Of a stretch of 36,383 nucleotides of DNA, positions 13,371-36,383 are shown in pieces; the first letter of the stretch is position 1, and every line of letters starts with the position of its first letter. A model generated the notes under the pieces. It searched no databases. It worked only from the letters and a program-made list of their open reading frames with translations, and was not told where the DNA came from. A program made the translations under genes and the position numbers. This DNA comes from a virus, in the IMG/VR virus record IMGVR_UViG_3300025137_000006, positions 1 through 36,383 of that record. The stretch is one strand, 5' to 3'.

Positions 13371-16300
13371 ATGGGTTATACAAGTAGTAATTATACAACT
13401 TACGGCGGGGGCGGTGGCTACGGCGGTTATTACGGGTACGGCGGTAACGGTTATAAGACAGGTTATGCGGGTGATGGTAGTTTTTATGACGGAGTTGATT
13501 ACGTTATGGACGAATTCATGGTTTATGGCAATAACGATGGTTTTGGTAATTACGTTGATTTTGGTTATTTTGGGGATTTCTTTTCTCAAGATAGTTTTTA
13601 CAATGGCTACACTCTTCAATCTTACAGCGATGGTAGTGATGAGGTTGATTATTCCGATAATGACAGTTCAATTTATAGCGTATTTCGCCATCCTGACGCA
13701 ATGGAAGGCTCGTCCTGGAGGCAAAACAAACTTCCTCCTATTCAGAAAAAACGACAAAACGTAATGGATGGCACGCTTATGCGTGCTTTGATTCAAGGAG
13801 AAGGTAAGCAGTTTATACAAACAGTCTATGACGGTATAAAAGATCATCATCAAACCGATCCTAATTCTTTTGCGGCTAATACATGGCTTGCTCCAAATGG
13901 AAAAACATATGAACTTCCTCCTGCCAGCGAAGATGCTATAGGTACGGAAAACGAATTTGCTTCTCGTATTCAAAATTTTGTTGGTTCTTTTGACTACTTA
14001 AGGATGTATAATAGAAATGTTGCCCAGCGTCCTGAAGGAATGGGTGAAGATGGTGTTTTTGCAGGTTTTGTAGGAGAAAATCTTGATAGTAATAGTTATC
14101 AAGAATTTTTAAATTCGTCTAAATATTTTCCTCAAGTCTTAAATCAAGCTGGAGAAACTATATCTCGCGATGGCACAATTATTAGTTATCCTGATGGCTC
14201 TACCTTTAATGTTGATTTTGGCGATGTTACTAATTTTACTCCAGGAAATGCTAGCGGATTTGATGCAAACCAATTAAGTTTTGAAACAGATCCTAGTGCT
14301 CTTTCTGGTCAATACAGCAGATTTTACAATGGTTTTATAGATCAACACATAGAAAATTGGAGATTAGGAAATGATTGGACTACTTTAAGTATTGGATATG
14401 ACGGAAGTATTTATGGTGAAAATGGATACGACCAAAACGGTTATAACAGACAAGGACATGACAATGCAGGGTATGATAGAGATGGTTTTCATTACGAAGG
14501 ATACAATCAAAATGGATTAGACGCTAGTGGTGAAATTTGGCGTGATGAAGAGGGATACGATGTTCAAGGATATGATATTAGTGGATTTGATATACAAGGT
14601 CTTGACGTTAATAATCGTGATGTTAATGGATACGATTTAGATGGACGTGATTTTCTGGGTTATGATCGCGATGGATACGATGGAGGAGGACGCGATGCCT
14701 TAGGTTATGATCGTGCGGGTTTTGACAACACTGGATATAATGAGGACGGATATGATATAAATGGTTTAGACCGTTTAGGATTTAATGCCGATGGTTTTAA
14801 CCAAGGTGGTTTCAACTCAGGTGGTTTTAATACTGATGGATTTAACGAATCGGGTTTTAACGAATTAGGTTTCAATCTTGAAGGTTATAATGCAGGTGGT
14901 TTTGATTCTTTTGGTTATGATCTTGAAGGATACGATCAAGGGGGACGCGATGTATTAGGTTATGACCGTGACGGATATGATGTTTACGGATATAATGAAG
15001 ACGGATATAATTCCAATGGCTATGATAATTTAGGATTTAACGAACAGGGACTCAATGACATGGGATATAATTCCGATGGCTTTGATACTGATGGATATAA
15101 TTTAACTGGTTTTAATTCAGACGGTTACAATATTGACGGGTACAACCAAGGTGGTTATAATCCCGATGGTTACGATTCGGATGGATATAACGCTCAGGGT
15201 TTTAATGCTGAAGGTTATGACCGCGAAGGTTATGCAGAAAACGGCTTTAATAGCGATGGATATAATCGCCAAGGTTTTGATGCTGATGGATACAATGCCG
15301 ACGGTTTTAATGCTGATGGTTACAATGTTAACAATTTTGACAGGCTTGGATACAATTCCGAAGGCTTTAACAGTTTAGGATATAATTCCGACGGATTTGA
15401 TAAAGACGGATTTAATGCCGATGGTTTTAATGCTGATGGTTATAACAAAAATGGATATAATTCGGACGGATATAATTCTGACGGGTACAATCAAGGTGGA
15501 TATAATTCTGACGGTTTTAATAGCGATGGATATAATGCCTTAGGTTTTAATCCCGAAGGATATAATTCTGAAGGTTATGACAATTTAGGATATAATTCCA
15601 ACGGATTTAACTCTAGTGGTTTTAATGCTGATGGTTATAACAGCCAGGGATTTAATAATTTAGGTTATAACTCTAGTGGTTATGATTCTTTTGGTTATGA
15701 TTCCGAAGGATACGACCCGCAAGGAAGAGATTTATTAGGTTATGATGTTGAAGGGTACGATTCTTTTGGTTATGATTCCGAAGGATATGACAAACAAGGA
15801 TACGACAACTTAGGTTTTAATAGCAATGGATATAATGCCTCAGGTTTTGATTCTGAAGGATATACTCCTGAAGGTTATGACGATTTAGGTTACGATCTTG
15901 AAGGTTTTGATAGTTTAGGATTTGATAACACTGGATATAATATTCTTGGTTTTGACAATTTAGGATACGACAAAGACGGGTTTAATGATCTTGGTTTGGA
16001 CGACGATGGCTACGATTTAGATGGATTTAATTCTGCTGGTTTTAATTCAGACGGTCTAGACGAATTAGGTTTTAACATATACGGTTTTAACGAAAACGGT
16101 TTGAACATTGATGGTTATAACATTCAGGGTTATAATAGTGATGGTTTTAACATTGACGGATATAATGCTTCTGGATACAACGAACAGGGATTTAATGTTG
16201 ACGGATTTAATCCTGCTGGATTAGATGCTGAAGGATATAACCAAAACGGAGTTCGTCCCGATCCTGATGGTTATTGGTACACTAAGGATGGAGAAGTTGA

Positions 16301-19352: not shown

Positions 19353-20729
19353 ATGGCAAGAATGGCAACTGGCGTAGCCGCCCAAAATTTTAGTCCTATA
19401 TCAAGCATTAACTACGACACACTGTCGCAGTACCAAGCTCTTGGGTCACAAATGGAGCTTCAAGCTTCACAGGCTAAAAATGACCGTGTACGCGACGGGT
19501 TGCAAGAAGCAGAAAAAAATCGCTTGCTCAACCAGCAAAACACGGGAAAAATTGCTGGTTTGTTAAATAGCAATCCAGAGCTAATGAAACAAATAGATTC
19601 TGGTGTTGCTCCTAAGGCAGTTACACAAGCTTTAAAAAGTTACGAAAAGGGTGGAGGTAATCTTAATTCTACTGCTTTGTTAGCTAACTACCTCGGTTCA
19701 AGTGCTGAACAAATTCAAAATCAACAAGTTTTAGATCTGGCTGAGTATCAAAAAAAATCAGCCGCTAACACCGCAGGCGTGAAAGCACAAGCCGATCTTT
19801 TAGAACAACAAAATAAAGCAAATCAACCGCAACCCTTGTTGTTTGATGCACAAGGTTTAGAACAATTCCAATCTGGGCAAGGAAGTGGTGGTAATTTTGG
19901 AGTAACGCCTAAAAATGTAGGTGGTGACATCATGTATCAAGTTGGTGCTCAACAGCTAGCTGGTTCTGGTGCTAAAGAAATGTTCATGCTTCCCAATGAA
20001 CTAAAAGCGTTAAAGGATAGAACGGGCATGGAATATGACATACGCCCATTTGTTGATCCAAAAACAGGTAAAGAGGGATACATGGTTGGCTCTTCTTACA
20101 ATCCTGCGGAAACTTACGATCAAATTTATATGTCATCTAAAGCAAAAGCAAGAGGTGAAGCTGATGTAGCCCGTGAAGACGAAATTGTAAATTGGGCACA
20201 GACTGATAGAATTGTAGCAGAGGCAAGTATGCAAAAATACAATACTGTGATTAATGGTTTAAAAACTCGCACTATTGACATTGGAGGAATCTCAGAATTT
20301 GTTCCAGACATTGCTGGTTTGCGTGAGTCAGTGCGTGGGGCAATGAATCCATCTGGTCAAGACGCAGTAGACAACGTGCGGTCTGTTGTTTTCTTATCAT
20401 TAAAAGCTATTTTGGGTGGTCAATTTTCTAAGGATGAAGCTAATCGTTTAGTGTCGGCGGCATACAATCCTCAACTAACAGGAGAGGCTGGTTATGCGGC
20501 AAACATACAAAGGCTAGAATTAGCTAACTCAGTTTTAATAAGGATTTACGATGCAAAAATGGAAGAATTAACTGCTTTACAAAGCGGAATAGAATATAAG
20601 GGACCTAGCCCTTCGGCAGTTGCTACATCTGAAATTAACCGCTTGCAACAATCAGTTGGTGACTCCATGTATTTAAAAACACAAAGCGGTTTAAGAATAA
20701 ATAACATTAGAGCGGTAAACAAAAAATAA
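19353..20729 (+). CDS. Probable internal virion protein, Gln-rich coiled coil
   Basis: A 458-residue protein between the giant protein and the 1018-residue protein. The first ~170 residues are Gln/Ala/Asn-rich and helical (M-E-L-Q-A-S-Q-A-K-N-D-R-V-R near 33, then L-L-N-Q-Q-N-T-G-K), typical of internal core or ejection proteins. A mixed middle includes R-P-F-V-D-P-K-T-G-K-E-G near 231. The C-terminal third is helical again. No enzymatic motif. The place in the gene order corresponds to the internal core proteins of T7-like phages; this is inferred from synteny, not homology. Confidence 0.68.
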   Translation: MARMATGVAAQNFSPISSINYDTLSQYQALGSQMELQASQAKNDRVRDGLQEAEKNRLLNQQNTGKIAGLLNSNPELMKQIDSGVAPKAVTQALKSYEKGGGNLNSTALLANYLGSSAEQIQNQQVLDLAEYQKKSAANTAGVKAQADLLEQQNKANQPQPLLFDAQGLEQFQSGQGSGGNFGVTPKNVGGDIMYQVGAQQLAGSGAKEMFMLPNELKALKDRTGMEYDIRPFVDPKTGKEGYMVGSSYNPAETYDQIYMSSKAKARGEADVAREDEIVNWAQTDRIVAEASMQKYNTVINGLKTRTIDIGGISEFVPDIAGLRESVRGAMNPSGQDAVDNVRSVVFLSLKAILGGQFSKDEANRLVSAAYNPQLTGEAGYAANIQRLELANSVLIRIYDAKMEELTALQSGIEYKGPSPSAVATSEINRLQQSVGDSMYLKTQSGLRINNIRAVNKK

Positions 20730-23820: not shown

Positions 23821-23967
23821 TTCCAAGGGTTTAAACGGAGAGAAAAGAAACGAACTCTCTGCTGGTAGTTGCCTATACAGCTTCCCTTTAGAATAATTTT
23901 AGGTTGTCAAGAATTTTTCATTAGTCAAGTTTTTGCGAACAAAATCCAAAAAGGGGGTAGCCACTTT

Positions 23968-25299
23968 TTAAGCAAACCTCCCTATGCAGTGGTAGAATTT
24001 AAACATACATCCAATGTCCCGTTCGCCCTCCCTGTTCTTGGCTAACTTATAAATTATTTCGGTGTAAGCACCCTTGCCGTCTATCCTGCGAGAAAGTTCT
24101 GGTTCGCCTTGATTGGATGGATACATCAGTAAAACAACGTCAGCGTCGTTCTCAATGTCCCCAGAATCCTTTAGATCGTAGAGTTGTAGACCTCCCTCCC
24201 GCTTAGCTCCTTCTCGGTTCACTTGAGCCAGTAGTAATACGCCTACATTTAGTTCTAGGGCTAGTTGTTTGATCCTGTGAGATATATTAGCAATGCCTTC
24301 ATTCTTCCCCATCGTCTTGGAGTTATACGGAATTAGTTGCAGATAATCAACGACCAGTAGCTTAACGCCCATCTTCTTCACCATGTTCCGAGCTTGACCC
24401 GCTAAGTCCTCAGCACCGCGAACAAAGTGCGAAGTATAGAAGGGTAGACCCTCAAGCTCCTCGTTGGCTTTCTTAAGTTTCTCAGCCCTCTCAGCACCGA
24501 TTGCACTATCGTTGACCGTCTTATAGTTTATGCCAGACAAAGTTTGTCCCATACGTTGCGTAAGCTGTTTCTTGGGCATCTCAAATGAAAAATAGGCTAC
24601 CCCCTTTCCCTGTTTCTTCGCGGCGTTCAGTGCTATGTTCAAAGCCAAGGCGGACTTACCGCAGGAAGTGGGGGCGGCGATTACTACGACTTCTCCCGCC
24701 GCAATACCATTGCTACCAAGAAGGACATCAAGTCTACCTATGTCAGTAGTCACGACATCCCTAACGAAGTCACCTCGGACAATAGCATCCAGCTCCTCGT
24801 TAATCAGGGAAGTTGCGGAGGACAAGTCCAAGTCATTAACATCTACCCGTATATCAGCGTTCAAGTCCACCTCCAGCTCTGACTTGATCTCGTGAGCGGG
24901 GGTAGCCTCTTCTTCGGCTTTCTCCCTAGCTATCCTGCAAGACCTAATAACATTCCGAAGCCGTGACTTCTCCGCTACCGTGTTTGCACACATTTTAAAA
25001 TCTATGGGGCTTGTGTGCTTGTCCATTAAAGTCATCAATCCAATGACTCCTCCCAGCAACTCAGTGCCCCCAACTGATTTTATCTGCTCTAGAACGGTTA
25101 CCTCGTTAAGCGGTTCATCTTTGTCGCAAATTGATTTAATGGAGCCAAATACCAATCGGCATCTGGATAAGTAAAAATCATCGGACGCAACCGTCTGACT
25201 GATTTGGTCATAATACTCAGCACCCTCATTTAGAATGGTTCCAATTACTTTTTCTTCGGCTTCCGCATTGTGCGGATCGTCCCTTGTTTGGCTTATCAT
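23968..25299 (-). CDS. dnaB: Replicative DNA helicase, DnaB-like
   Basis: A 443-residue hexameric helicase. The N-terminal helical domain (N-A-E-A-E-E-K-V-I-G-T-I-L at 11-23) is the usual DnaB N-domain start. The RecA-like motor has Walker A A-P-T-S-C-G-K-S (about 207-214), Walker B V-V-D-Y-L-Q-L-I (about 313-320), a Q-V-N-R-E sensor (H4 region) and the D-S-G-D-I-E-N-D-A-D element with a following arginine. The frame is open to 25407, but a terminator hairpin lies at 25328-25366. The ATG at 25299, directly before I-S-Q-T-R-D-D-P-H-N-A-E, is therefore the better start. No phage primase or polymerase is present, so it should recruit host replication proteins. Confidence 0.95.
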   Translation of the reverse strand: MISQTRDDPHNAEAEEKVIGTILNEGAEYYDQISQTVASDDFYLSRCRLVFGSIKSICDKDEPLNEVTVLEQIKSVGGTELLGGVIGLMTLMDKHTSPIDFKMCANTVAEKSRLRNVIRSCRIAREKAEEEATPAHEIKSELEVDLNADIRVDVNDLDLSSATSLINEELDAIVRGDFVRDVVTTDIGRLDVLLGSNGIAAGEVVVIAAPTSCGKSALALNIALNAAKKQGKGVAYFSFEMPKKQLTQRMGQTLSGINYKTVNDSAIGAERAEKLKKANEELEGLPFYTSHFVRGAEDLAGQARNMVKKMGVKLLVVDYLQLIPYNSKTMGKNEGIANISHRIKQLALELNVGVLLLAQVNREGAKREGGLQLYDLKDSGDIENDADVVLLMYPSNQGEPELSRRIDGKGAYTEIIYKLAKNREGERDIGCMFKFYHCIGRFA

Positions 25300-27389: not shown

Positions 27390-28165
27390 TATTTTATGAC
27401 TGGCTTCATTCGTTTTGACCAGTATATTTTACTAGCCAGTTTTGCGTTTTTCATACCCCACTTTACCTCCGCTTCGCTCCAAGTTCTGTGATGATGTTCC
27501 CTCGTATCGCAGTCAATGATAACGCTGATGCACTTGGGTAAATAGTCCAGCTTATGATGCTTCATTAGCATCCATGACTCAATAGCGAGTTGCTCGCAAT
27601 CCTTAGCGTATGTCTTTGCTTTTCCTTTTGTATTGGTTCGGCATTTGTAATCCGCTAAAAACAGGCTACCCCCCTCGTCGTGTCCAATGAAGTCAACCGA
27701 TCCAGCGATCTTAAAAAAATTGTTAGATACCACTTTTTCACAAGCTAATGGCTTGATGTTGTTTTCCAGCACCCATTCGTAAAAGGGGGTAGCCCATTCA
27801 TCGTAATCATAGTTATGTGGGCACTCCCTTTTTTGGTCATATATCAATGAGTTAATCATATCCTCAATGGTTTCATGCACCGCCGTTCCGAATTCCGAGC
27901 TTGGTATCTGTTCTTCTGTAGTTGGATGAGTTCTAGTCCCGTAGGTAAGCCTCTCAATCTCCTGCCATGAGTTCCCCGCCCTCTGCATGGTGAGTTCATA
28001 CATCATTCGGGGCTTATAAATAGAGTCCAAGAATTGATCTTTAACAATTCCCAAGACAGTAGTAACTGACGGGTAAACTTTTGCCCCCTTTTGTTTTGCC
28101 TGATGGGGGGTAGCCACTTCTGGCTCAAAGGTTGGTTCTTCTTTGCAGTTATAAAAATGAGACAT
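27389..28165 (-). CDS. PD-(D/E)XK nuclease, RecB/Cas4-like exonuclease
   Basis: A 258-residue nuclease. Motif residues in order: E143 (A-C-E-K-V-V), G155-S-V-D158, L-A-D172-Y-K174, and a Q192-x3-E segment. This is the RecB/lambda-exonuclease order of the PD-(D/E)XK superfamily. An N-terminal H98-E-T-I helix agrees with RecB-like members. Together with the ERF protein it would form an exonuclease/annealase pair, resecting ends so that annealing can occur. It overlaps its upstream neighbour by one base (TAATG). It carries three copies of the GGCTACCCC motif, in two frames. Confidence 0.85.
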   Translation of the reverse strand: MSHFYNCKEEPTFEPEVATPHQAKQKGAKVYPSVTTVLGIVKDQFLDSIYKPRMMYELTMQRAGNSWQEIERLTYGTRTHPTTEEQIPSSEFGTAVHETIEDMINSLIYDQKRECPHNYDYDEWATPFYEWVLENNIKPLACEKVVSNNFFKIAGSVDFIGHDEGGSLFLADYKCRTNTKGKAKTYAKDCEQLAIESWMLMKHHKLDYLPKCISVIIDCDTREHHHRTWSEAEVKWGMKNAKLASKIYWSKRMKPVIK

Positions 28166-30387: not shown

Positions 30388-30481
30388 AAATATATGAATA
30401 ACAACATAATGCAAAAGTGGCTACCCCCGCAACCAAACTGCGGATACAAAACTGGCTACCCCCTCCCTTCAATTCGGGCAC

Positions 30482-30517: not shown

Positions 30518-30994
30518 TTACTTAAGCACGTAAGTCCTGTCTCTCTCGTGCCCTCGGTAAGTGTCCCAAAGCTCCGCGTCATAGCCAAGCTCTCGGTTTT
30601 GGATGAAGTAGACCCAAGCATAAGTCGTGCTCCAGTCGTGCATTGATACGGGGATCACTTGGCGTTTGTAGAAGTCAGGGTTGCCCTCTAGGCAGTCCAA
30701 CTGCTGGAAGGTTTCGGGGGTTACGTCGTAAACCTCCAAGGTTACTTGCTCGCCTTCGCCCTCCATGTCGTGCAAATAGGGTAGCCCCTCAACCTCAAGT
30801 GGGTAGGCACTTTTTGTTTTGCCTGTCCCTATGAACTCGGAAGTCTCTAGCAAGCGGTGGTTTGAGTAGCCAGCCTTCAGGGTTCCATAAACGGCTACCC
30901 TGCGTTTCCTGTCTTCGGGGAAGCAGTTGGCTTTGGAATAAAAGATGCCGTCCCGTCTATGCCATTCTCCGAACTTGGAGACCCTACCCGTCAA
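30518..30994 (-). CDS. Gamma-glutamylcyclotransferase-like (AIG2/YtfP) domain, downstream half of an interrupted fusion
   Basis: Residues 33-140 carry the GGCT/AIG2 signature: V-A-V-Y-G-T-L-K-A-G-Y-S-N (33-45), a G-E-Q-V-T-L-E-V-Y-D-V strand (81-91) and L-D-C-L-E-G (99-104). Known members cleave gamma-glutamyl amides to 5-oxoproline. The first ~30 residues (S-K-F-G-E-W-H-R-R-D-G-I-F-Y-S) are not GGCT; they resemble the end of the GAT-II-like phage protein encoded just upstream. That frame is open and in phase back to the TGA at 31045-31043, and the only start between TGA and the GGCT core is a TTG (30994) without a ribosome-binding site. So this is either made by read-through or is the remnant of a 290-residue fusion. 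A terminator follows. Confidence 0.82.
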   Translation of the reverse strand: MTGRVSKFGEWHRRDGIFYSKANCFPEDRKRRVAVYGTLKAGYSNHRLLETSEFIGTGKTKSAYPLEVEGLPYLHDMEGEGEQVTLEVYDVTPETFQQLDCLEGNPDFYKRQVIPVSMHDWSTTYAWVYFIQNRELGYDAELWDTYRGHERDRTYVLK

Positions 30995-31042
30995 AGTATC
31001 TATAAGAGCAAATCGGGTTTCGGTTAGCTCTAAGAATTTCTT

Positions 31043-31399
31043 TCATTGGTTCGGCTGTATTCTTGGCAATACATTGTCAGCGATATCCGCAACGTCGCTC
31101 TGTGTGTCTGATCCGTAGCCGTCAACCGTGCCGTTACTATATATAACTGTGCGGTTGTCCACGTTGAATGGATGAACGTTGTTCATGTCAACGGCTCCAA
31201 CGGTCGCAAATCTAAAGTGAGCAACGATTGGTCGGTTCGTGTTTAGAATCCTGTTGACACTTGTATAGTCAAGGGTTCTGCGAGTCTTCCCGCTGTCTAA
31301 GTAGGTTACCCCGAAGCCGTGCGGGTTAATTACCTTTGCCCGCTCTATTATGTTTCGGGGAATTCTTTTGCCTTCTGGTTTATGTATGATTATACACAT
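31043..31399 (-). CDS. Class II glutamine amidotransferase-like domain (stops early)
   Basis: A 118-residue N-terminal-nucleophile domain. C2 would be the nucleophile after Met removal (M-C-I-I-I-H-K). The expected later motifs follow: N-P-H-G-F-G-V (25-31), H-F-R-F-A-T-V-G (61-68), N-V-H-P-F (74-78) and S-N89-G90-T, the oxyanion pair. Class II domains release ammonia from glutamine for an amide-forming partner; the amidoligase-like gene is next door. AAGGAAA precedes the ATG. The product is short for the family and ends at TGA (31045-31043). The next codon continues in phase into sequence (E-T-R-F-A-L-I-D, then G-R-V-S-K-F-G-E-W) that looks like its missing end. Confidence 0.8.
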   Translation of the reverse strand: MCIIIHKPEGKRIPRNIIERAKVINPHGFGVTYLDSGKTRRTLDYTSVNRILNTNRPIVAHFRFATVGAVDMNNVHPFNVDNRTVIYSNGTVDGYGSDTQSDVADIADNVLPRIQPNQ

Positions 31400-31427
31400 T
31401 TTGTTTCCTTTCGTTTTGTTTGTGTTG

Positions 31428-31730: not shown

Positions 31731-32049
31731 TTTGTATCTTTCTTTTTTGGTTATGTGACAGGCAGTTATTCCGCTTATCTGTTATCAATAAAAACTATCT
31801 CTTTATATGTGTCAAATGTTTTTTGCATTTTTTATTTCATTAATAGATACAGTGCAGTGACTTGCAAAAGTGGCTACCCCCATTTCTCGTTCGGCTCAAA
31901 AAGTGGCTACCCCCTAGACAGCCAGCACGCCAGCCATCCCCGAAAAGTGGCTACCCCCCTAGAATCCACAGAAAGCCCCCTGGAAGCCCCGCGGATCATT
32001 CCCCCCTAGCCCTACCCCTAGAAACGGCTACCCCCTAGCAACAGGGCAC
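31731..32049. repeat. Non-coding region with iteron-like direct repeats
   Basis: No gene on either strand. Four same-orientation copies of (A)AAAGTGGCTACCCCC or its shorter form begin at about 31866, 31900, 31944 and 32022, with a fifth partial at 32081 beyond the hairpin. Several are followed by CTAG, giving repeated CCCCTAG (about 31912, 31957, 32002, 32014, 32032). The left part (31731-31860) is A+T-rich. Direct repeats beside an A+T-rich stretch fit an iteron-type origin, but also a cluster of protein sites. Confidence 0.7.
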
Positions 32050-32092: not shown

Positions 32093-32971
32093 TCACGCCG
32101 TGCGTAAAACGGATTGCAATACGGGGGCATCATTCCCGAATCCGAAGTGATGCATGCGTTCTATTACATGTTGAATAACGGGGCGGAATTCGGCGTGCAC
32201 TGGTTTGATTGTGCCGTCAATGTTCGCCGTTGCTACCTTTAGAGCAATAAGCACGTTGTGCATTGGATTTTGATATGATTCCGTGCGGGGAATCTTTAAT
32301 CTACATCTTTCGGTCGTAGCTTGGCATAAAGCAATCCAACAAACGATTTTGCCGAAGTCTAGACTGCCCTGATGCTGGCGGAATTCAATAGTGCCGTGCT
32401 TGGCAAACGCCGTCAAGTTGACATTACGGTAGCGAAACTCTCCCCCCGTTCTAACCCGCCCCGAATCTTGGCAAATCGCCGTGTTTAACATAGAACGCAT
32501 TGAGCGGGAATAGGGCGAATCGCCCCGCCGTGATGGGGCAAGCATCTTATCAATGGCTTGCTCGCTCTTAACGGCGTGATTTACTACATACTGCAAACGC
32601 TTAGGCGTGTAGCCTTTAGCGTCACAATGCACATGAAGCCCGCATGTTTTCTTTACCTTTACGCCGTTGCGTTCTAGCACTTCCAACACCTTGAACAGTT
32701 GCTTGAATAGTTGAGCGGGTTGCAATGGCGGGCTAACATATTCACGCCCTACATAACCCCGTGGGGCGTTGCTATTGAGTGAGCAGTCAGTAATGCCTTT
32801 CCAGTGACGGCGGGTTGATGTATTCCAGTTTTCCCGTTGATAGGGCACGACCGCATTCAACTCTCTGTTGATTAGACTCTCTCTATCTTCGGGTATGTAG
32901 CATTCAATCTCTAGCCCGATCGTCTTAGGCTTCATTGTGAACGCTATTTCTTGTGCTGTTTCGTTATTCAT
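32093..32971 (-). CDS. Amidoligase-family enzyme (glutamine synthetase-like COOH-NH2 ligase)
   Basis: A 292-residue protein with the ordered motifs of the amidoligase_2 family: G-L-E-I-E (19-23), D-C-S-L (62-65), E77-Y-V-S-P (77-81), C-G-L-H-V-H-C-D (110-117), R-Y-R-N-V-N-L (180-186) and G-T-I-E-F-R-Q-H-Q-G (193-202). The acidic and His residues match metal/ATP ligands of the glutamine synthetase fold. The family is predicted to join a carboxyl group to an amine. Comparative genomics by Aravind and colleagues linked it in phages to class II amidotransferase and GGCT/AIG2 domains; both are the next genes in this direction except for one small ORF. The substrate is unknown. It is transcribed leftward from the 32.97-33.45 kb control region. 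Confidence 0.9.
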   Translation of the reverse strand: MNNETAQEIAFTMKPKTIGLEIECYIPEDRESLINRELNAVVPYQRENWNTSTRRHWKGITDCSLNSNAPRGYVGREYVSPPLQPAQLFKQLFKVLEVLERNGVKVKKTCGLHVHCDAKGYTPKRLQYVVNHAVKSEQAIDKMLAPSRRGDSPYSRSMRSMLNTAICQDSGRVRTGGEFRYRNVNLTAFAKHGTIEFRQHQGSLDFGKIVCWIALCQATTERCRLKIPRTESYQNPMHNVLIALKVATANIDGTIKPVHAEFRPVIQHVIERMHHFGFGNDAPVLQSVLRTA

Positions 32972-33276
32972 TTTCTTTGCTTTCGTTTAGTTATGGCTTC
33001 GGCGTTGTGCCTAGGCTCGCTCTCAATATAGGGTAGCCAGTTATTGAGTCAACTACATAAGCCCCCTTTTCTTCCCCCCGTAATGGGTTGCCCTTTCCCG
33101 CTAAAATAGCCCCGTCAATGGGGTAGCCAGTTTTTGCCCATAGGGTAGCCAGTTATAGGGGGCGGGGGGGGTTGAGATCATTTTTTTTTTTACAATGCTT
33201 ATATATTAAGTAGGTCTCAAAAAAAAGTGCTACTCATAGGGCGGTTTCCCCACAAAATAAACCTACCAACGTGTCC

Positions 33277-34039: not shown

Positions 34040-34226
34040 TAAGCTAAAAGAGATACTTGGGGAACATTATCCTAATTACTGCATTATTGTGCTGGATGAA
34101 GAAGGAGAAGTCCAATCCGAATACACAACAGTTTCAGTAGCTAGAATGCTTATTAGAGAAGCTTCGCTAGATTTTAGAGATGACAACGTAGAAGTTATAT
34201 GGGATATAGACGATACCGATGATTAA
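34020..34226 (+). CDS. Small acidic protein, unknown
   Basis: A 68-residue, highly acidic protein with an AGGAGG ribosome-binding site (34011-34016), overlapping terS by 20 bases and the sulfotransferase-like gene by 8. It starts M-D-E-E-I-L-D-K-L-K-E-I-L-G-E-H-Y, has a Y-C-I-I-V-L-D-E-E-G-E strand pair and ends in D-I-D-D-T-D-D. The tight overlaps link it to both neighbours. Function unknown. Confidence 0.65.
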   Translation: MDEEILDKLKEILGEHYPNYCIIVLDEEGEVQSEYTTVSVARMLIREASLDFRDDNVEVIWDIDDTDD

Positions 34227-34884
34227 CCATAAAGACAAAAAACTAATATTATTGCCGCCCAAAACAGGCACTTCTTCTTTGGAAAGTTTGTTTACAAAGA
34301 ATTTTTGTGGATACAGTGCGTATACCCGATACCACCCATTAAGGCACATTCATATGTATCTTGATGAATCTATTTTTGCTTACGGAATAAAAGATATAGA
34401 AAACTGGGAAATATATCAAACAGCAAGAAATCCTATGGATCGGATTATTTCTGCATTCTTGCATCAAAAATTTATATTACGAGAATTAGGCAAAAAAATG
34501 AAAATCCTAGAGTTTGAAGATTTTGTAGAAACGGTAAATCAACATCATCATTTATTGCCAGAAAAAGAAAGAACTTTCTCTAGTTCAGTATTATGCAATG
34601 ATAAAATAATTCCCTCCAACAATAAATGTTCGGCAGGAGTTCGGTTTTATGTTCCGCAAACAACCTGGGCTGATCCTAGCAAATATAATGTAAAGTACAT
34701 TAAATTAGGACAAGATAATTCTAAATTATATGCAGAAATGGGTTTGCCGTCAAATTTAAAATTACCGCATTTAAACAAAAGCAGATTAGACAAATCTCGC
34801 CATCAAAATATACATACTTATAGAACAAAAGAAATTATACAATCATTATATAAAAATGATTTTTTAAAACTAAATTATGAATAA
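34219..34884 (+). CDS. Sulfotransferase-like protein 2
   Basis: A 221-residue relative of the protein at 12551-13369, but shorter. The 5'-phosphosulfate loop is L-P-P-K-T-G-T-S-S-L (12-21). The 3'-phosphate site is T-A-R70-N-P-M-D-R-I-I-S78-A-F-L. A His-rich segment follows the loop (Y-H-P-L-R-H-I-H-M-Y, 38-47). The acceptor is unknown. It starts 8 bases inside the previous gene and ends 8 bases inside the hydroxylase-like gene, so the three are translated as a block. The DNA is strongly A+T-rich toward its end, in contrast to terS, suggesting acquired cargo placed between terS and terL. Confidence 0.8.
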   Translation: MINHKDKKLILLPPKTGTSSLESLFTKNFCGYSAYTRYHPLRHIHMYLDESIFAYGIKDIENWEIYQTARNPMDRIISAFLHQKFILRELGKKMKILEFEDFVETVNQHHHLLPEKERTFSSSVLCNDKIIPSNNKCSAGVRFYVPQTTWADPSKYNVKYIKLGQDNSKLYAEMGLPSNLKLPHLNKSRLDKSRHQNIHTYRTKEIIQSLYKNDFLKLNYE

Positions 34885-35506
34885 TCAAAAAATGAATAAA
34901 CCTAATTCAACATTAGCAGATATAAAAAGACGGTTACCTTTTAAAATTCAAGAAATTGGCAGTTATGATTCTGCCGACCTTCTTCGTAGATTGGAAAAAA
35001 TGGATCCTGAATGCTGGTTAGAAGAATCATGGAGGCAAAAAACATTTAAAGCTCACTCAAGTACGGATGCTTTAAACATTATGTGGAACAAGGAATGCCT
35101 AAAAGACAACACTAAGGGCGAAAAACATAAAAAAAATTACAATTTTTTAAATTTTGATAAAGTCCTTGAAGATTTAAAACCAATATATGAAAAAAAATTT
35201 GGCTCAGGAGATTTTCACCGAGTATTAATTACGCGACTAAAGCCAAAATCTAGTATAGCCGTTCATGCTGATCAAGGCATTGCTTTAATGCAAGGGCGAC
35301 GAACTCATATTCCTTTAACAACTAACAAGGACATTGTTTTTAAATGTGGACAAGATTTACAATCGTTTCATTTAGAAGTTGGCAATGTATATGAGTTAAA
35401 TAACGCTAAAAAACACGCAGTAAGTAACCCAACAGATGAACATAGAATTCATTTAATCATTGATTGGCTACAAAATAAAGGATTTTGGGAAAAAATGAAT
35501 GATTAA
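34877..35506 (+). CDS. Aspartyl/asparaginyl beta-hydroxylase-like 2-oxoglutarate oxygenase
   Basis: A 209-residue Fe(II)/2-oxoglutarate-dependent dioxygenase. Residues in order: H130-A-D132 (first iron ligands), R142-T-H144-I-P-L, H180-A-V-x-N (third iron ligand) and R190-I-H-L-I-I-D-W (2-oxoglutarate arginine and end strand). This fits the Asp/Asn beta-hydroxylase family, whose best-known member hydroxylates Asp/Asn in EGF-like domains; other members act on small molecules, so the substrate is open. It overlaps the sulfotransferase-like gene and terL by 8 bases each and is A+T-rich like the former. Together they look like a two-enzyme modification insert. Confidence 0.85.
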   Translation: MNNQKMNKPNSTLADIKRRLPFKIQEIGSYDSADLLRRLEKMDPECWLEESWRQKTFKAHSSTDALNIMWNKECLKDNTKGEKHKKNYNFLNFDKVLEDLKPIYEKKFGSGDFHRVLITRLKPKSSIAVHADQGIALMQGRRTHIPLTTNKDIVFKCGQDLQSFHLEVGNVYELNNAKKHAVSNPTDEHRIHLIIDWLQNKGFWEKMND

Positions 35507-36383
35507 TTTTACGGAGCATCCAATACTCAAGCCACCTACGGACGAAGAAATCGTAGCTCTAGCTGAAGTTGATCCAACACTGTTAGCTGATCTGCACGAA
35601 GCTCACGAAAATCTTATTCGTGCTAGTATAGAAGATCCGCTTCGTAGTGGTTTTGATCTTCAGGGATGGGGTCGCATTAGGGACTCTTTAAATAAATACA
35701 ATGAAGTTATTACTTTTGGGGGAAACCGAAGTGGAAAAACTACTGGTTGTGCCAAATTAATAATGGAAGCGGTTATTAACAATAAAGATGGGCACATAGT
35801 TTGTTTCTCTCAAAATGCCGACACTTCAGTAAAAGTTCAGCAAGCTGCTATATGGGAAATGATGCCCAAAGAATTTAAGAAAAAAACTAAAAGCATTGAA
35901 GGCTATATTAATTTTAGTATGCAAAATGGGTTTACTGGTTCTAGTTTCATATTTCCTGACACTAGGACTAGAGTGGACTTTAAAACCTATACACAGTTCA
36001 GTAACAATCAGACTATCCTTGAGGGATTTGAGTTTGGATTCAAAAACAACCCAGAGCTAAATATAGGGGCTTGGTTAGATGAATATCTTGGCGATGCTTC
36101 GTTAGTTAATACTTTGCGATTTCGTTTAGCTACAAGAGATAGCAAAATGTTGCTTGGATTTACGCCAATTGATGGGTATACATCTTTTGTATCAGAATAC
36201 TTGAAGGGTGCACAAACAATACAGACCCGTAAGGCATCTCTATTAAAAGATAGAGAACTTCCCGTCCAGCAATACAGTCCGAATCGTGATGCTGGAGTAG
36301 TTTATTTGCATTCTGATGAAAACCCATTTGGGGGATATGACCGAATAAAGAAAGATTTGCAACAATCCACTGATGAGCAAATT
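35499..36383 (+). CDS. terL: Terminase large subunit, N-terminal half (continues at 1-870)
   Basis: Starts at the ATG at 35499, 8 bases before the upstream stop, and runs off the window edge. Walker A is F-G-G-N-R-S-G-K80-T-T (73-82), Walker B G-A-W-L-D194-E195 (190-195), and a coupling motif L-G-F-T-P-I follows at 219-224. This is the ATPase that pumps DNA into the head. The 262 codons to 36284 join in frame with base 1, giving 551 residues in the closed genome. The last 99 bases repeat 1-99 and must not be counted twice. Confidence 0.95.
   Translation, partial: MINFTEHPILKPPTDEEIVALAEVDPTLLADLHEAHENLIRASIEDPLRSGFDLQGWGRIRDSLNKYNEVITFGGNRSGKTTGCAKLIMEAVINNKDGHIVCFSQNADTSVKVQQAAIWEMMPKEFKKKTKSIEGYINFSMQNGFTGSSFIFPDTRTRVDFKTYTQFSNNQTILEGFEFGFKNNPELNIGAWLDEYLGDASLVNTLRFRLATRDSKMLLGFTPIDGYTSFVSEYLKGAQTIQTRKASLLKDRELPVQQYSPNRDAGVVYLHSDENPFGGYDRIKKDLQQSTDEQI
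36285..36383 (+). repeat. 99-bp terminal direct repeat (same as 1-99)
   Basis: Bases 36285-36383 match 1-99 without a difference, and the terL reading frame runs through the join. This is the overlap left by an assembler on a circular (or circularly permuted/terminally redundant) molecule. The unique genome length is 36,284 bp. Since the repeat lies inside terL, it is probably not the physical packaging end. Confidence 0.95.

Follow-up and report, generated by a model that had tools for sequence, protein, structure and literature searches.

The window, the whole 36,383-nucleotide stretch of viral DNA analysed here (IMG/VR virus record IMGVR_UViG_3300025137_000006), carries a gene in which a class II glutamine amidotransferase (GAT-II) domain and a gamma-glutamyl cyclotransferase (GGCT) domain are fused and in which one TGA interrupts the reading frame at codon 119, where most relatives encode tryptophan. 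Comparison across the phage family suggests that the gene specifies one GAT-II/GGCT protein and that its UGA is probably decoded in a context-dependent manner, presumably as Trp. For a distant clade of phages that retains a TGA at the same codon, the sequence comparisons make UGA readthrough very likely. Our confidence for the window is lower because its TGA is young and may be a fresh nonsense mutation that fell on the same codon.

The interrupted gene and its surroundings

The gene was read on the minus strand from 31399 to 30518 in a single phase, as 118 codons, TGA, 174 codons and TAA, with no further stop. A first-pass annotation of the sequence had proposed a GAT-II/GGCT fusion with one in-frame TGA, and both the open frame and the profile matches bear this out, although the read-through product has 293 residues rather than the 290 given there. 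It had also seen no proper start for the second part. Indeed, within 60 codons past the TGA a single in-frame start is present, TTG at codon +17, and it has no Shine-Dalgarno-like motif. The GAAAGGA leader of the gene is found in relatives as well.

Table 1. Coordinates of the fusion gene, its parts and neighbouring features in the window
Feature	Position	Strand	Remarks
GAT-II/GGCT fusion gene	30518..31399	-	293 codons with the TGA read; terminator TAA
N-terminal part, amidotransferase core up to the TGA	31043..31399	-	118 codons
In-frame TGA, codon 119	31043..31045 (31045-31043)	-	TGG (Trp) in close relatives; kept as TGA in the distant clade
In-frame continuation	30518..31042	-	GGCT domain, preceded by the four remaining strands of the GAT fold
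Shine-Dalgarno-like AAAGGA before the ATG	31406..31411	-	The run begins at 31411
GGCT (AIG2-like, PF06094) domain, residues 168-268	30596..30898	-	Profile match, E 1e-19
Possible RNA hairpin AGAGC...GCUCU	31005..31031	-	z -2.0 to -2.9; begins 11 nt past the TGA
Neighbouring amidoligase gene (Amidoligase_2, PF12224)	32093..32971	-	Ends in an ordinary TGA
GGGGTAGCCASTTTTG copies	23954-23969, 27657-27672, 28107-28122, 30412-30427, 30447-30462, 31865-31880, 31898-31913, 31942-31957, 33120-33135

The GGCT part scored 71.7 bits against PF06094 (curated cut-off 22.8), contains the YGTL motif, and matched the GGACT structures 1vkb and 3juc in Foldseek. The N-terminal part has the amidotransferase motifs: a Cys2 nucleophile (MC), HFRFATVG, an NG oxyanion motif and SD. 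Residues C2, R63, N89, G90 and D102 were invariant across 30 aligned members. GATase_6 and GATase_4 profiles matched residues 28-98 of the window protein weakly, with a score below the cut-off (19.8 versus 27), whereas the family member L261 scored above it (28.3 versus 27). The fold of this domain matched GlmS glutaminase (1xff, E 5e-6). The Cys after Met together with the GATase_6/4 profile places the N-terminal domain, at the level of sequence, among the predicted class II glutamine amidotransferases (Ntn).

In an AlphaFold2 model (mean pLDDT 92.6), residue 119 lies within a helix (residues 116-125), and the strands at 129-134, 139-143, 147-149 and 152-154 beyond it match the GlmS glutaminase fold. 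According to this model, termination at the TGA would cut the helix and leave the 118-residue product without four strands of the GAT fold. The short product is therefore predicted to be unfolded, and truncation is probably not the point of the TGA.

The amidoligase encoded next to the fusion gene is probably a functional partner of the GAT-II/GGCT enzyme; a role in forming or remodelling peptide or gamma-glutamyl linkages has been proposed for phage neighbourhoods of this kind. The TGA of the amidoligase gene was considered as a second recoding site and rejected, because it is the natural end of the gene and is followed by terminator-like sequence. Directly upstream of the fusion gene and in the same orientation, the gene at 31428-31730 matches Kyanoviridae Gp96 (PF23790, E 3e-17). 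The asymmetric motif GGGGTAGCCASTTTTG occurs nine times in the window, compared with 0.07 copies expected by chance; the copies are in mixed orientation, mostly intergenic and in the early region, and are perhaps operator- or stoperator-like sites. A similar form, GGGGTACC, lies near the fusion gene in the relative L003, and the motif itself is present in the relatives L017 and L019.

Elsewhere in the window, an exact direct terminal repeat of 99 bp (1-99 and 36285-36383) makes it probable that the virus record is a circular, complete assembly. A large terminase-like gene, which matches region 24040-24918 of Phage C75C1, spans the terminal junction; immediately in front of it, at 34219-35506, are genes resembling a sulfotransferase (PF03567, a marginal match) and an aspartyl/asparaginyl beta-hydroxylase (PF05118). 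About 30 degenerate repeats in a 15-nt register (Gly-Tyr/Phe-Asn/Asp-x-x) were found at 14424-16239 within a gene for a 1987-aa protein, likely a fibre.

The tryptophan column across the family

The GAT-II/GGCT fusion is a widespread phage family. A near-DNA search of the phage collection with the window gave no match. At the protein level, L003 is 67% identical to the window and Phage C75C1 58%; in both relatives the gene is continuous and has TGG for Trp at the site. About 25 other close relatives also have a continuous open reading frame, and within the close clade Trp119 does not vary. Whether relatives have Trp or a stop at this position had been a question of the first-pass annotation, and both occur: among 109 distinct members, the column was TGG in 95, TGA in 12, ATG in 1 and ATC in 1, giving Trp in 95 of the 97 members without TGA. 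TAA or TAG was not found inside the gene in any of the 109. Separate genes for the two domains with good starts, which would have spoken against an interrupted fusion, were seen only in remote Melvirus phages, where GGCT and an aminotransferase-like gene are separate; the close relatives all have single fused genes. On the tree, TGA at the Trp column requires three changes, and TGA at any position four. Even if L299-L302 represent a reversal or are misplaced in the tree, at least two independent origins at the Trp column remain.

The nearest relatives of the window (L003, L015 and L018) all have TGG, indicating that the window's TGA is young and that the region downstream of it has not had time to show selection. 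At 48 downstream columns that are otherwise invariant, the window has three private changes; most relatives have none or one, and the intact L030 has as many as the window.

The TGA is no one-off of the window, since a distant clade retains it at the same codon. Eighteen distant loci, with proteins about 37% identical to that of the window, contain exactly one TGA each, at codon 118, which aligns with codon 119 of the window; a dedicated search added further members of this clade and TGG sister phages. The TGA was retained in all members of the distant clade, whose proteins are down to 57% identical to one another. In all pairs with enough differences, pN/pS past the TGA was 0.11-0.46, indicating that the part downstream is translated and selected. 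A stop kept in place over evolutionary time and purifying selection after it are the sequence signs expected of readthrough, and the distant clade has both. Readthrough, one of the options in the first-pass annotation, is thus strongly supported for the family by the comparison of relatives.

The codons that follow the TGA in the distant clade (119-128) were 94% codon-identical compared with a mean of 60% (P = 1.5e-4). Within them, a 20-nt core, CTAGGTCARCACGATTCTAG, is nearly invariant and lies 9 nt behind the TGA. This core was present in 21 of 2.9 million IMG/VR contigs, each time behind this TGA, and was absent from the TGG sister clade and from the window. A small bulged hairpin (CUAGGUC-AGCAC-GAUUCUAG) is a possible fold of this element. 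Because its pairs do not vary (no covariation) and its folding energy is not above that of shuffles, our claim for the distant clade is a conserved sequence, and the structure is a guess. The shuffles in the distant clade do not favour a hairpin as the general signal. The possible hairpin in the window is more stable than its shuffles, with the lowest z among 22 close relatives, and L017 and L019, at their own TGA site, rank first and third of 22; both observations are no more than suggestive. An Rfam search returned nothing relevant.

The distant clade differs from the window's clade in other respects. Its leaders have no Shine-Dalgarno-like motif, whereas those of the window's clade do, and this difference in leader type suggests that the two clades infect different host groups. 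The distant-clade leaders share an AGGTCAG motif that is also present in the conserved element behind the TGA. In the proteins of this clade (L237 5001-6083 and relatives), GGCT is followed by a third, C-terminal part with CxxC...CxxC (zinc-ribbon-like).

A TGA at another position was found within the window's own clade, where L017, L019 and the partial L205 have a single TGA at codon 40. L017 and L019 differ by 29.5 synonymous and 6.5 nonsynonymous changes after this TGA and by 2 and 0, respectively, before it, indicating constraint on both the catalytic-Cys segment and everything past the TGA. They show no difference across codons 16-58. By our own estimate, stretches as quiet as this arise by chance in roughly 2% of cases, and recombination (a transferred tract) may lie behind the TGA that L017 and L019 have in common.

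Alternative explanations of the TGA

A sequencing or assembly error, or a phage-wide use of TGA as a sense codon, can practically be dismissed, although both had been raised in the first-pass annotation. A second contig from another metagenome (IMGVR_UViG_3300001472_000727, L002/L012) is 99.8% identical to the window over 12.1 kb; genuine differences occur elsewhere, and none lies in the fusion gene itself. Because this independently assembled strain carries the same TGA, the codon is not an assembly error of TGG. Apart from four scattered synonymous differences in the 12 kb, the two strains differ at about 20 positions clustered at 19889-20052, in the gene at 19353-20729 and near the end of the L012 contig; the cluster may reflect recombination or an assembly edge. 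As for the genetic code, TGA terminates four other genes in the window and is the natural end of some genes in these phages, and Trp is encoded 110 times by TGG compared with one in-frame TGA. In 1579 HSPs of the window and C75C1 proteins with about 110 relative contigs, internal stops were confined to the fusion gene; two other flagged sites coincided with the end of a gene or preceded the start of one. The distant clade gave the same picture across 177 homologous genes, this TGA being the only one besides sites before gene starts. A whole-genome TGA=Trp code was rejected because TGA ends genes and other homologues have no internal stops. No suppressor tRNA was found: the window has no tRNA gene, and the sole tRNA among the relatives' loci was a tRNA-Met in two distant-clade loci.

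We consider two other explanations very unlikely. If the UGA encoded selenocysteine, the downstream hairpin would be a bacterial SECIS element. As in bacterial selenoprotein decoding, the UGA is closely followed by a conserved, potentially hairpin-forming sequence, and in the distant clade the hairpin loop is located 17-21 nt past the UGA and has G as its second position in most members, a distance and a base within the range for bacterial SECIS elements. In contrast to bacterial selenoproteins, however, homologues have Trp rather than Cys at the site and the loop G is variable, being A in L264, L330 and L331; residue 119 is not among the conserved catalytic residues, and the Rfam search gave no match. 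The selenocysteine-like suppression offered by the first-pass annotation is therefore improbable. Slighter still is the chance that each half is translated on its own, with initiation or reinitiation inside the gene past the TGA. GTG or TTG codons occur 28-50 codons past the TGA in several members, and the genes are split in the remote Melvirus phages. However, no start past the TGA was conserved or preceded by a Shine-Dalgarno-like motif in the members examined, the GAT-domain stretch right behind the TGA is conserved as protein, and the codon-40 TGA of L017 and L019 would make both halves useless. A more substantial rival, which we regard as possible but less likely than readthrough, is that the window's TGA is a recent Trp-to-stop nonsense mutation in a dispensable accessory gene that is being lost, with only leaky background readthrough. 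The TGG of all nearest relatives, the single transition needed to turn the Trp codon into TGA, the confinement of this TGA to two near-identical strains and the slight excess of private downstream changes are consistent with such a mutation, and prokaryotes commonly carry in-frame stops confined to one lineage, which as a rule do not last long (PMC7918605). Nevertheless, the mutation would have struck the exact codon that the distant clade keeps as TGA. As about 22-27 codons of the gene are one step from TGA, this coincidence has a chance of about 1 in 25, or of 1 in 4-5 if TGA is tolerated at Trp codons only. Moreover, the window gene has neither a second stop nor a frameshift. The fresh nonsense mutation listed in the first-pass annotation thus applies at most to the window alone, and the family-wide evidence favours readthrough.

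Proposed readthrough as dose control and its relation to known systems

Under context-dependent decoding of the UGA, most ribosomes would stop after 118 residues, and a fraction would read the UGA and complete the 293-residue enzyme. The UGA would most likely be read as Trp by the ordinary, near-cognate tRNA-Trp of the host. Because misreading of UGA as Trp at a Trp codon restores the normal protein, a change from TGG to TGA would lower the dose and leave the protein sequence unchanged; the UGA may thereby keep the dose of the GAT-II/GGCT enzyme low or regulated. We infer three things: the TGA of the window functions as the conserved one does, the inserted residue is Trp, and the phage benefits through control of the dose. 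More tentatively, the UGA could be a dedicated switch at one Trp codon, read as sense solely where the surrounding sequence allows it (including the 20-nt 3′ signal in one clade), that evolved at least twice at this codon and once at codon 40, probably in different host groups, and that sets enzyme dose or timing during infection.

Among stop codons, UGA is the most prone to leakage in several bacteria, with tRNA-Trp reading it; in one reporter study, readthrough was about 12% in E. coli and <0.1% in two Pseudomonas species (PMC9481147). The A1 protein of phage Qbeta is produced by UGA readthrough of the coat gene (PMC8067240). As proposed here, a phage UGA is partly read as Trp by the host and a short and a long product arise from one start; however, Qbeta is an RNA phage in which the readthrough concerns a structural protein and the short product is functional (PMC8067240), whereas the window represents a tailed DNA phage with the UGA inside a domain of an enzyme, at an otherwise-Trp codon, and a short product that is probably unfolded. 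Belinky et al. (2021) described bacterial in-frame stops under purifying selection and proposed that their readthrough lowers expression; conserved stops were usually short-lived, with 93% of comparisons having at most two mismatches in 30 bases, and independent origins of a stop at one site were rare (PMC7918605). In contrast, the TGA described here is kept between 57%-identical proteins, has re-arisen at the same codon, and is followed by a conserved 3′ sequence in one clade. The fusion protein of Phage C75C1 (WJE88161.1; OQ984151) has the same domain order as that of the window and an adjoining amidoligase gene, but it is encoded with TGG at the site in one continuous 298-aa open reading frame. 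A search of the open-access literature gave no paper matching in-frame TGA readthrough in phages. Readthrough itself is known; judging from the aligned genes, what would set this case apart is how long the TGA persists, its recurrent appearance at a single codon and the sequence conserved on its 3′ side.

An internal stop in a phage gene is usually put down to a pseudogene, an error or a code change of the whole genome. The fusion gene described here belongs to phages that otherwise follow the standard code; it has acquired TGA more than once and retained it over a long period, accompanied by a conserved 3′ sequence. If confirmed, this would be an unusual programmed stop-codon readthrough in a tailed phage and would provide a compact, natural signal for UGA recoding in DNA phages, and gene callers would be splitting real phage enzymes. 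Why a phage throttles a GAT-II/GGCT enzyme beside an amidoligase would then become a testable question.
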